Assembly (NCBI GenBank): GCA_003218535.1
Contig: QHNV01000052.1
Span: 1 to 51,579 of the forward strand
Direction: 5' to 3'
DNA length: 51,579 bases
From: Verrucomicrobiota bacterium
GTDB taxonomy: Bacteria > Verrucomicrobiota > Verrucomicrobiia > Chthoniobacterales > UBA10450
In this document: positions 39,376-44,148 of the stretch, piece after piece
Layout: each line of letters opens with the position of its first letter
Position numbering within the stretch: position 1 is the first letter of the stretch
Notes under the pieces: generated by a model
What the model saw: the letters and a program-made list of their open reading frames with translations, nothing else
Database searches by the model: none
What the model was told of the DNA's origin: nothing
Translations under genes and position numbers: made by a program

Positions 39376-40479
39376 ATGAATCAGGCAACACTTTTGCAGA
39401 TTGCCGAGCGACTTGAAGCTCTTGCAGGTAAACTTCCCGAGAAAATTCGCCGGCCGGTGCTGAGCGAACTGACTCCGCTCAAAGAATTGTTTCTTAGACA
39501 GCGGCGACCGCGGTTTCTCTTTGTCGGCTCGAGCAGAATGCCAATGCACCGAATTGTGAACATGCTTTTCGCTCCAAATGCAGCGGAGCATGTGAACCTT
39601 ACGCTAATGCCAGTCCATCGATGGATCGACTGGAACATACCTGGTCACGGAACGGTCTCGATCCTGGATGCGCGTGATGCCGCAGGTTCGGCCGTACTCC
39701 AGGTCGAAGAAGATCTGAAGCGTGACCCTGCTGACATAATCTTCTTTTTCGACGATGGCCAATCGGATTTAAAGGATCTGCTCGTTCCCAATTTCCTCTC
39801 GCACATGAAATATGAATTCGGTATGCGCTTGGACGCACCGAAAATCATTGGCCTTTCAGTCGGACCTGAAAAGCGGGTTGCGCAACTGAAACAAGCGTTC
39901 GATGCGCAGCCGGCCGTGCCCAATCGTTTAGTAAGTGTGGTCCGCCTCACCGAAAACGGATCAGCCGAACAACAGCGTTTGATGTCGATCCTTGCCGAAG
40001 AGCTGCCGAACGAGGCTAAGATCGAGATGATTCGGATTTCGCACGATCGTAAAGCGCAGGCTCACGTCGCGAAGATGCTGATAAAATCGGTAACTGCGAT
40101 TTGCACGGCGATCGGTGCGCAGCCCATTCCGCTGGCAGACCTGCCAATTCTCACCACACTCCAAGTAGTAATGGTCTCAGGAATCATGTACGTAAGCGGC
40201 CGCGAGCGCAGCTTGCGGGGTGCGACCGAGTTTATCGCCGCGCTTGGAGCCAATGTGGGTGTGGCGATGCTTCTTAGAGAAGCGGCGCGCGCGATTCTGA
40301 AGTTCTTCCCGGGCTGGGGCAATGTTGTCTGCGGCATGGTTGCCGGAGCCGGGACATATGCGATCGGTCGCGCGGCGACTGCGTACTTTCTCGAAGGAGC
40401 TTCTTTGAAAGACGCGCGTCGGACCTATCTGCGGAGCCGCAAAAAGCGGGCGCCTCCTGGCCTGGAGATGCCTGAGTGA
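39376..40479 (+). CDS. DUF697 membrane protein with degenerate GTPase-like domain
   Basis: A 367-residue protein. Residues about 45-220 look like a GTPase fold: RPRFLFVGSSRMPMHRIVNMLF occupies the P-loop position but lacks the GKS/T, and PADIIFFFDDGQSD stands where a switch/Walker B strand would be. Residues about 235-345 are a DUF697/YcjF-like region with IPLADLPILTTLQVVMVSGIM, EFIAALGANVGVAMLLREAAR and NVVCGMVAGAGTYAIGRAATAYF, which should insert in the membrane. Role unknown. It is the only gene between tkt and rsmA. Confidence 0.8.
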   Translation: MNQATLLQIAERLEALAGKLPEKIRRPVLSELTPLKELFLRQRRPRFLFVGSSRMPMHRIVNMLFAPNAAEHVNLTLMPVHRWIDWNIPGHGTVSILDARDAAGSAVLQVEEDLKRDPADIIFFFDDGQSDLKDLLVPNFLSHMKYEFGMRLDAPKIIGLSVGPEKRVAQLKQAFDAQPAVPNRLVSVVRLTENGSAEQQRLMSILAEELPNEAKIEMIRISHDRKAQAHVAKMLIKSVTAICTAIGAQPIPLADLPILTTLQVVMVSGIMYVSGRERSLRGATEFIAALGANVGVAMLLREAARAILKFFPGWGNVVCGMVAGAGTYAIGRAATAYFLEGASLKDARRTYLRSRKKRAPPGLEMPE

Positions 40480-40633: not shown

Positions 40634-41995
40634 ATGAAGCTCACCGAGATTCGCGCGTCGCTTCGGGAAATAGAAGTCTCGCCGGTCAAAACTCTCGGAC
40701 AAAATTTTCTGCACGATCAAAATCTCGCACGCTGGATCGTCGATCAAGCAGAGATAAGTCCGAATGATTACGTCGTCGAAGTCGGACCGGGTCTGGGCGC
40801 TTTGACTGAATTGCTTGTTCAAAAATGCTCACACGTTCTAGCAATCGAAAAAGACACAAGACTCGCTAATTTTTTGCGCGAGCGATTCAAACATTCGCGA
40901 TTTGAAGTAATCAACATCGACGCGCTCAACTTCGATTCGCGTGTTCTCTTCTCATGTCGTCGCGTAAAACTTGTTGGCAATATTCCTTACAACATTTCGA
41001 GTGCGCTGCTTTTGAAATTTCTGCAATATCCTAGCCCTATTTCGTTGCTGTTGTTTATGTTACAAAAAGAGATGGCATTGCGACTTTCCGCATCGCCACG
41101 CACGCAAAGTTATGGATCGCTGACGTTGCACGTGCAGACGAACCACCACGTCAAGTATTTGCGCACGATTCCAGCGTCAGTTTTCTTTCCAAAACCGGAA
41201 GTCGATTCTGCGTTAGTAAAAATCTCGCCGCGCGATCCGCTTGAATTACCGCCGCACGATTATGAGTTGCTCGAAAGATTGGTCCGACGCGGTTTTTCGC
41301 AGAGACGAAAACAACTAAGGAAGCTGCTCAGCCCGGAAATTGTTCACGACTGGGACAGCGCAGCCTCGATTGTCAGATTTGATCCTAGAGCTCGAGCCGA
41401 AGAGCTGTCACTTCCTCAATGGATTGCATTGGCGAATTATATCGCGCCACGGACGGCACCAAACATAAGCGCGACATCCGAAGAACGCTTCCCGGTTGTA
41501 GATAAAAATGATCGCATTCTGCGCTACGCACCCCGCTCGGAAGTGCATGGGAATAACTTGCGGCATCGCGCAATTCACGTCCTGATTTTCAATCAGGCAG
41601 ACGAAGTTTATTTACAGCAGCGCTCGCGCTGGAAAGATAGGCATCCTCTCAAATGGGATTCGAGCGCTGCTGGGCACGTAGGGGACGGGGAAAGCTATGA
41701 CGAAGCCGCCGAGCGAGAGTTGCAAGAAGAACTAGGCGCCAAGATCAACCTTAAAAGGATTCTAAAGATTCCGGCCTCAACACGGACCGACCACGAATTT
41801 ATATGGCTTTATCGAGGAGAAATTTTGGGCGGTCTCCAGCCGAATACGACGGAAATCGAGACTGGCGTTTTTTACCCCCCGGCAATCATTGATGGTTGGG
41901 TCGCAGCGCGGCGGGAAGATTTTGCGCCTGGTTTTTTGGAGTGCTGGAAAGCATATCGACAGAAAGAGCGGTCCAACGCGAACGCACCTACCTAA
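40634..41995 (+). CDS. rsmA: RsmA/KsgA 16S rRNA dimethyladenosine transferase fused to a Nudix hydrolase
   Basis: A 453-residue fusion. Residues 1-270 are RsmA: LGQNFLHDQNLARWIVD, the SAM motif VEVGPGLGALTELL (48-61), catalytic NIPYNISS (116-123), FFPKPEVDSALV and the GFSQRRKQLRKLL helix. It dimethylates two adjacent adenines near the 3' end of 16S rRNA. Residues about 283-440 are a Nudix domain with intact box GHVGDGESYDEAAERELQEE (347-366, GX5EX7REUXEEXG), preceded by HRAIHVLIFN; it resembles the IPP-isomerase-like/YfcD group. The C-terminal end overlaps the convergent AP2-like gene by 8 bases. No stop or ribosome site lies between the domains. Confidence 0.92.
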   Translation: MKLTEIRASLREIEVSPVKTLGQNFLHDQNLARWIVDQAEISPNDYVVEVGPGLGALTELLVQKCSHVLAIEKDTRLANFLRERFKHSRFEVINIDALNFDSRVLFSCRRVKLVGNIPYNISSALLLKFLQYPSPISLLLFMLQKEMALRLSASPRTQSYGSLTLHVQTNHHVKYLRTIPASVFFPKPEVDSALVKISPRDPLELPPHDYELLERLVRRGFSQRRKQLRKLLSPEIVHDWDSAASIVRFDPRARAEELSLPQWIALANYIAPRTAPNISATSEERFPVVDKNDRILRYAPRSEVHGNNLRHRAIHVLIFNQADEVYLQQRSRWKDRHPLKWDSSAAGHVGDGESYDEAAERELQEELGAKINLKRILKIPASTRTDHEFIWLYRGEILGGLQPNTTEIETGVFYPPAIIDGWVAARREDFAPGFLECWKAYRQKERSNANAPT

Positions 41996-42233
41996 GTCCC
42001 ACGAATTTTCTTCGAGGCAAACGGCGTAGGGTTGCCCGTTTAAACTTTCGCGCGGCGCGTCTCGCTCCTTTTTTGCCGCCGTAAAGGCTGTCGCTGAACA
42101 TTCTGGTCACCACACGATCTCCGCGAAGAAAGTGAACCTGAAAACCATGCGTCTGCTTCTTGGCGCGCGATTTCGTGTCGATGCGACGGATGTTTGCTTC
42201 CGAATCAGGATTGGGACGTCTTCGCTTTCGCAT
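41988..42233 (-). CDS. Small AP2-like DNA-binding protein
   Basis: An 81-residue, very basic protein. After a charged leader, IRRIDTKSRAKKQTHGFQVHF, LRGDRVVTRMFSDSLYGGKK and ARRAARKFKRATL follow the three-strand-plus-helix pattern of bacterial AP2 domains (GWQVRI...FFSD...YGGKEKALKAA). Such stand-alone AP2 proteins occur in Verrucomicrobia and Planctomycetes. Probable DNA binding. It is convergent with rsmA, and no invertase or endonuclease domain is attached. Confidence 0.7.
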   Translation of the reverse strand: MRKRRRPNPDSEANIRRIDTKSRAKKQTHGFQVHFLRGDRVVTRMFSDSLYGGKKGARRAARKFKRATLRRLPRRKFVGLR

Positions 42234-43040: not shown

Positions 43041-43161
43041 AAGCTTCTACAAGGAAATCATTTTAACGATTCCGCCAGTTTGTTTTCACATCCGCAGAAA
43101 CGACGACTAACGATTCTTGTGTGTCGGCTCGCACGAGATTGAGCCTAAACCCCTATTGCTT

Positions 43162-44148
43162 ATGAAAACATTATTTTCACTGGGAGCCTTTGTTGCCGTT
43201 TTGGGTTTGGCCGGGGCTTCTACATTCGCCCAAACCCAGAGCACTACGACGAGCAGCAACACGACTTACGTCCAGACCAGCAAGCTCGTCGGCACGAAGG
43301 TAAAATCGTCCCAAGGAGAAGAGATTGGTACGGTCAAAGACGTGGTTCTCGACCGTAATACGGGCTGCATGGCTTACACAGTCCTTTCAACCGGCGGAGG
43401 TGGAGCGCGTGTCGCCGGAGGCGGCAAGTTAGTGGCTGTTCCCTGGGCGGTATATTCGCCGACAGCAGACGTCAGTGCCCTTACTGTAACGGTGGATCGG
43501 GATCGGATCTATAACGCGCCGGTGTTCGACTACGCGCGTATCGATGAATATTCCAGGCCCGATTACATCAGCAACGTCTATAGCTATTACGGCGTAAGCC
43601 CCGGCGCAGGAGCGGGTGCTGCAGTCTCGACGACTACAACGGGCGCTGCCGCAAGAGCGGGCGCCACGGCGAGCCCAGGAGCAACTGCTTCGCCGGCTGC
43701 GACCGGCTCACCCGGTGCCATGAGATCGCCCGCGACGACGGCTTCACCCGCTGGTAGAGCATCGCCAAGTCCACGCGCCACAACCACGGCAAGACCGCGT
43801 GCGAGTGCACCGACACGACCATACGCTACTGCATCTCCGGGCCAAGAAGGCGCGGCAACTGCAAGCCCGTCAGCCAGAGGAGCACGCGGCGCTAGGGGCA
43901 GGCCAGAAGTCTCACCGGGTGGCGGCGCCGAGACGGCATCGCCAACTGAAGGACGGGAAACTCCATCGGAACGCGGCGCTAGGAGCAGGCCAGAAGCCTC
44001 GCCGGGTGGTAGCGCTGAGACGGCGTCGCCAACCGAAGGCCGAGGAGGTCCATCGGAGGGAGCAAGCCCTGGGGAGAAAACTAGGACTTCGCGGCATCAC
44101 GGGAAGCCAACTGGCACACCGCCAGAGAAGCCACAAGAACAAGAATAA
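43162..44148 (+). CDS. Exported PRC-barrel protein with long Ala/Ser/Pro-rich tail
   Basis: The ATG at 43162 starts a signal peptide (MKTLFSLGAFVAVLGLAGAS). Residues about 30-125 are a PRC-barrel domain (KLVGTKVKSSQGEEIGTVKDV, LDRNTGCMAYTVLS, KLVAVPWAVYS). From about 150 the protein is a low-complexity tail of ASPGAT/ATASP units, ending in two 29-residue tandem repeats and a basic HHGKPTG stretch. PRC-barrels in exported proteins often bind ligands or partners at the envelope. The tail would be extended and wall- or matrix-associated. Its codon pattern is strongly repetitive. Confidence 0.8.
   Translation: MKTLFSLGAFVAVLGLAGASTFAQTQSTTTSSNTTYVQTSKLVGTKVKSSQGEEIGTVKDVVLDRNTGCMAYTVLSTGGGGARVAGGGKLVAVPWAVYSPTADVSALTVTVDRDRIYNAPVFDYARIDEYSRPDYISNVYSYYGVSPGAGAGAAVSTTTTGAAARAGATASPGATASPAATGSPGAMRSPATTASPAGRASPSPRATTTARPRASAPTRPYATASPGQEGAATASPSARGARGARGRPEVSPGGGAETASPTEGRETPSERGARSRPEASPGGSAETASPTEGRGGPSEGASPGEKTRTSRHHGKPTGTPPEKPQEQE
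43885..44058 (+). repeat. Two 87-bp tandem repeats in the PRC-barrel gene
   Basis: Two near-identical 87-base units begin at 43885 and 43972 with CGCGGCGCTAGG(G/A)GCAGGCC, each encoding a 29-residue GAR(G/S)RPE(V/A)SPGG-type unit. The length is a multiple of three, so copy-number change keeps the frame. Confidence 0.7.

Follow-up and report, generated by a model that had tools for sequence, protein, structure and literature searches.

The methyltransferase RsmA/KsgA dimethylates A1518 and A1519 of the 16S rRNA late in the assembly of the 30S subunit. It is near-universal and acts at a well-studied late 30S checkpoint. Among the Nudix proteins of known structure, the stand-alone enzyme DR_0079 of Deinococcus radiodurans is a CDP/CTP hydrolase that prefers these two nucleotides (PMC5389931, PMC5158307). 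A eukaryotic precedent joins a Nudix domain to an unrelated partner: NUDX3 of Arabidopsis, in which that partner is dipeptidyl peptidase III, turns IPP, DMAPP, GPP and FPP into monophosphates (PMC11062433, PMC6412517, PMC6779861). Our search of the open-access literature turned up no publication describing an RsmA-Nudix protein, and a methyltransferase partner is not mentioned in a wide-ranging review of the Nudix clan. Both domain families of the protein reported here are already known; the architecture, its recurrence and a three-histidine hydrolase signature are new.

In the window, which is the whole stretch of 51,579 nucleotides analysed here, the fused gene occupies positions 40634 to 41995 of the plus strand, and all its features given below are on this strand. 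It starts with ATG and encodes 453 amino acids followed by the stop, with zero internal stops, and full-length homologues were found. The N-terminal RsmA/KsgA domain (residues 19-271, 40688..41446) was recognised by Pfam RrnaAD (E 1.5e-60) and by the NCBIfam RsmA equivalog TIGR00755, which it passed with 244.4 bits at a cut-off of 171. Foldseek matched this half to KsgA of Bacillus subtilis (6ifs, E 2.6e-26). Among 47 fused proteins, residues E49, G51, P52, G53 and G55 of the SAM-binding motif I (E49-V-G-P-G-L-G55, 40778..40798) are invariant, indicating that this motif is kept, and the same holds for N116, P118 and Y119 of the catalytic NxPY motif (N116-I-P-Y119, 40979..40990). The whole fold, both motifs and the occurrence as a single copy are shared with standard RsmA/KsgA, from which the window protein differs by a C-terminal Nudix domain attached via a short linker. 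An identity as Erm resistance methylase was rejected, as all Erm models shown scored below their own cut-offs.

The linker (residues 272-283, 41447..41482) has the same length in the majority of fused proteins, and its region is modelled with a pLDDT of 70 (residues 271-280). The IDI-like Nudix domain behind it (residues 284-453, 41483..41992) is supported by Pfam, the AlphaFold2 model and VIA-align. Pfam NUDIX matched residues 310-419 (E 8.5e-17), with NUDIX and RrnaAD both above cut-off, and the Nudix box (residues 347-369, 41672..41740) reads G347-H-V-G-D-G-E353-x7-R361-E-L-Q-E-E-L-G368, an exact GX5EX7REUXEEXG. The AlphaFold2 model of the full-length protein reached a pLDDT of 92.6 and a pTM of 0.89, and this high pTM suggests that the two domains are placed in a fixed arrangement relative to each other. 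For the Nudix domain the pLDDT was 95.8, and Nudix structures dominated the structural matches. The open reading frame encodes, without a change of frame, a complete RsmA/KsgA and a complete Nudix domain, exactly as the first-pass annotation had claimed from the letters: Pfam, TIGR00755 and the exact Nudix box agree on this, and no stop separates the domains in the window or in its relatives, where the junctions are open.

Relatives carrying the fusion, which that annotation had proposed to look for, are abundant; they stem from independent assemblies, one being that of Chthoniobacter flavus Ellin428. Within the class, about 107 of 286 sampled genomes encode the fused protein, a count of full-length matches less three genomes (G060, G239, G326) in which the two genes proved to be genuine neighbours. 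In three others (G057, G206, G051) the search flagged stops, yet the junction was in frame and open on checking. Nearly all complete copies are fused in the genus, family and order of the window, and not a single split fusion or Nudix loss was found among the sampled genomes of this order with a complete RsmA match. The fusion is also present in records named Udaeobacter, Chthoniobacterales and Chthoniobacter flavus. Since the carriers comprise many independent assemblies, closed single-contig genomes among them, a sequencing or assembly artefact was rejected. Two genomes of 0.92 Mb have retained the fusion; each holds only two Nudix matches, the fused domain being one of them. We take one of the two (G043) to be Ca. 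Xiphinematobacter Idaho Grape, and another fused genome (G152) is very probably that of Akkermansia muciniphila ATCC BAA-835. Beside soil Verrucomicrobia, the fusion group thus very probably takes in a tiny-genome nematode endosymbiont together with the gut bacterium Akkermansia. Outside the class, the fusion was absent among the matches listed for a phylum sample of 289 genomes, and the best 80 loci of a genome-contig scan were all titled Verrucomicrobia. Six genomes with an estimated completeness of 86-96%, five of them from the window's order (G037, G047, G049, G055, G160, G195), had no RsmA over the cut-off, and those tested also had no IDI-like Nudix protein; these could be real KsgA losses or assembly gaps.

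The Nudix half was found in 173 of 188 genomes of the class, almost always as a single copy, and is, judging from its distribution, an old gene of the class that was formerly an ordinary stand-alone gene. It occurs in three states: fused, as a separate gene that immediately follows rsmA in the same orientation, or without linkage to rsmA. Many adjacent pairs (L156, L157, L158, L159, L185, L191) have an ATGA overlap or nearly one, or an ATG/TGA overlap, an arrangement typical of translational coupling. Within the families f28 and f37 the fused and the adjacent state exist side by side, and in f18, f20, f21, f24, f36 and others the Nudix gene lies away from rsmA. A concatenated tree of RsmA and Nudix requires at least four changes between the adjacent and the fused state, all of them forced by well-supported branches, so the fusion has recurred. 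On this tree, the fused groups are one large clade of the window's order with f15 and f35, then f14, f37 and a single genome of f28 that sits within a group of adjacent pairs; a tree of the Nudix domain alone recovered the same four groups. Three or four separate fusions would be the simplest history, whichever state was ancestral, because many fissions instead would take far more steps. We consider it quite probable that the fusion arose from a coupled gene pair. In comparisons of close pairs, dN/dS was mostly 0.03-0.2 in both halves, with a maximum of 0.28, so both domains are under purifying selection and neither half is decaying.

Because the fusion arose repeatedly from genes that lay side by side, the pairing probably matters. 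It is not obligatory, as about 10 sampled genomes of the class keep RsmA with the Nudix gene missing. A tie between the Nudix domain and ribosome maturation had been proposed from the sequence of the window, and the repeated fusion, the ATGA overlaps and the joint conservation support this as far as a functional pairing is concerned. The regulatory side of the proposal did not gain the same support: it is the recurrence that suggests such a link, and elsewhere in the class the Nudix gene is unlinked to rsmA or was lost while rsmA was kept, so that a regulatory tie is at most what we infer.

The Nudix half was compared in a residue census of 255 sequences, covering fused, adjacent and unlinked arrangements and counting some genomes more than once. 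Irrespective of the gene arrangement, H305, H311, H348, R312, R330, K334, E388 and E407 are 100% conserved, as are G347, H348, R361, E362, E365 and E366 of the Nudix box; for R301, H305, H311, R312 and H315 (41534..41578) the values are 99-100%. In some families, Asp, Gln or Cys sometimes stands in place of the first glutamate of the box. H305, H311, H348 and E388 align with His25, His32, His69 and Glu116 of IDI, which form the metal site of this enzyme, and counterparts of IDI K21, R51 and K55 are present as well; R312 and H315 are two more conserved residues in this stretch. The catalytic residues of IDI, Cys67 and Trp161, are missing. The position of Cys67 is Ala346 in the window and A or S in 98% of the fused copies, and the position of Trp161 is Gly433 in the window and was never Trp in the census. 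In place of IDI Arg83 stands the Nudix glutamate E362. As the catalytic Cys and Trp are absent, the idea of an isomerase fails and hydrolysis is favoured: the residues characterise this half as a Nudix of the hydrolase type whose pocket is of the IDI type, and not as an isomerase. The three-histidine signature is common to homologues in other Verrucomicrobiota classes and in Bacteroidota, and the genuine IDIs of the phylum differ at five of the signature positions. The three histidines together with the intact Nudix box mark out a distinct IDI-like Nudix group.

The best match to this half in both sequence and fold is YfcD of Escherichia coli (2fkb; fused-Nudix profile E 1.4e-25; VIA-align Z 24.0, rmsd 1.6 over 159 residues, 23% identity), a stand-alone protein which lacks two of the three IDI-type histidines. 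Its equivalog PRK15393 was missed by the window protein (59 bits, cut-off 152). DR_0079 (2o5f) has the second-best fold (Z 22.7, rmsd 1.7 over 156 residues; profile E 4e-19) and likewise a hydrolytic Nudix box, but has Asn for the final Gly of the box and lacks all three histidines. Since these histidines are invariant in the Nudix proteins of the class, their pocket differs from that of DR_0079 and YfcD. E. coli IDI of type 1 (1hx3/1nfs) followed with a Z of 22.0 and an rmsd of 1.9 over 163 residues; in the fused-Nudix profile search, IPP isomerases came after YfcD and DR_0079. All 12 genomes of the class tested, including that of the window, contain IspH and no IDI over the cut-off; they use the MEP pathway, and the Nudix domain described here is their sole IDI-like match. 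Genuine IDI-type sequences were seen outside the class in the families f76 and f98 (L321, L322, L327). In two f76 genomes with a genuine IDI, ispH was not detected, which suggests the mevalonate pathway there.

Taken as a whole, we read the locus as encoding a two-enzyme protein that derives from a coupled operon and whose halves are produced together, with a prenyl diphosphate as substrate of the Nudix half slightly above a nucleotide; the probability of this reading is roughly 0.6. There is little doubt, in our view, about its core, the fusion of two enzymes in one chain that are both predicted to be active. The N-terminal half would carry out the late dimethylation of A1518 and A1519, and the C-terminal half would be an active Nudix pyrophosphohydrolase cutting the diphosphate of a small metabolite in an IDI-type pocket, which combines the canonical Nudix box with an Arg and a Lys that bind the diphosphate and with a glutamate beside the three invariant histidines. 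In part of the class, the stand-alone Nudix gene would have come to lie immediately behind rsmA, often with overlapping start and stop codons; a change of frame, or loss of the stop in between, would then have fused the two several times. The benefit is most simply explained by co-production with ribosome building, in which the fixed joint output of both enzymes would let the clearing of the diphosphate track the rate at which ribosomes are built. The ligand of the Nudix domain might also control methylation directly.

As substrate we tentatively propose, at somewhat less than even odds, prenyl diphosphates, with IPP and DMAPP being converted to monophosphates. We lean to these because of the IDI-like pocket, the status as the only IDI-like protein in MEP genomes and the precedent of NUDX3, which by description also combines a fused Nudix domain with reported IPP/DMAPP hydrolysis; nucleoside di- and triphosphates rank slightly lower and are nearly as likely. 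The motifs of NUDX3 are presumably similar to those of the fused domain, which is a lead only. The neighbours of stand-alone Nudix copies vary by family, and an isoprenoid theme was absent among them.

The nucleotide alternative, a house-cleaning (d)NTP/NDP hydrolase acting like DR_0079 on CTP/CDP or on oxidised or methylated nucleotides, with a fusion that shares expression only, is a serious if not favoured possibility. It gains from YfcD and DR_0079 being the closest solved folds, the latter the best one with a known substrate, and from an ogg-like glycosylase gene near the rsmA-nudix pair in several families; the missing histidines of both proteins count against it, and the glycosylase neighbourhood is not general. 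That the domain is an IPP isomerase, or keeps such an activity, is highly improbable. The profile similarity to PRK03759 (63 bits) and TIGR02150 (about 48-50 bits) and the conserved metal-site counterparts would fit, but both equivalog cut-offs (127 and 105.8 bits) were missed, and the residue changes described above, together with the ispH of the class genomes and the other signature of the phylum's genuine IDIs, led us to reject a true IDI. Of the 'isomerase-like' label in the first-pass annotation, the resemblance to IPP isomerase stands and the catalysis does not.

For the fusion itself, a neutral origin, in which co-transcribed neighbours were joined when a stop was lost and nothing depends on the join itself, appears rather unlikely. 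Overlapping reading frames make the fusion an easy mutational step, the Nudix gene is unlinked or absent in many relatives, and the surroundings of unlinked copies lack a theme; against this stand the three to four recurrences at least, the stability in the window's order, the retention in the 0.92-Mb genomes and the purifying selection on both domains. At the other extreme, the Nudix domain could sense or degrade an alarmone such as (p)ppGpp or Ap4A and gate rRNA methylation as a metabolic checkpoint on 30S release, which we regard as improbable to a still greater degree. The cotranscription of ksgA with apaH, the gene for Ap4A hydrolase, in E. coli and the fixed domain arrangement suggested by the model would both suit this idea. 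To our knowledge, a pocket of the IDI/YfcD type matches no known alarmone-hydrolase group; alarmone genes are not consistently linked, and the active site is identical in unlinked copies. In its favour, other Nudix enzymes are reported to degrade (p)ppGpp, an alarmone that controls ribosome assembly factors (PMC7584652, PMC5845004). An alarmone or a damaged nucleotide, the substrates named at first, is possible, and nothing in the data points there. It is likewise improbable that the Nudix half controls or reports on the RsmA half and gates the last rRNA methylation at the pre-30S particle, where it would bind or hydrolyse a diphosphate metabolite, either a prenyl diphosphate or a signal nucleotide; if true, this would be a metabolic checkpoint on ribosome release built several times by Verrucomicrobia. 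With the recurrent, conserved fusion to a metabolite hydrolase across a whole bacterial group, a link between metabolism and ribosome maturation becomes testable.

Some gene neighbourhoods are conserved within families. In f21/f51 (L184, L192, L194) folE2 (GTP cyclohydrolase IB) immediately precedes the stand-alone Nudix gene. In many families, queE and a class III aminotransferase gene lie directly upstream of rsmA and nudix in a conserved four-gene order (L156-L159, L177-L179, L189, L199, L217, L219, L237). Neither linkage extends beyond its own families, and roles in folate or queuosine metabolism were therefore dropped. In the window, a short basic open reading frame of 81 aa on the minus strand (41988-42233; '...THGFQVHFLRGDRVVTRMFSDSLYGGKKGARRAARKFK...') converges on the fused gene and overlaps its end by 8 bases. 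It is without a Pfam match, is kept at the same position in L036, L062 and L069, and looks like a small AP2-type DNA-binding protein. The upstream gene (39376-40479, plus strand) encodes a protein of 367 aa whose C-terminus resembles DUF697 (below cut-off) and is kept beside the fusion within the family, with a divergent transketolase gene beyond. Further downstream (43117-44148, plus strand) follows a protein that by eye is PRC-barrel-like; its long tail is of low complexity, with many A, S, P, T, R and G residues.
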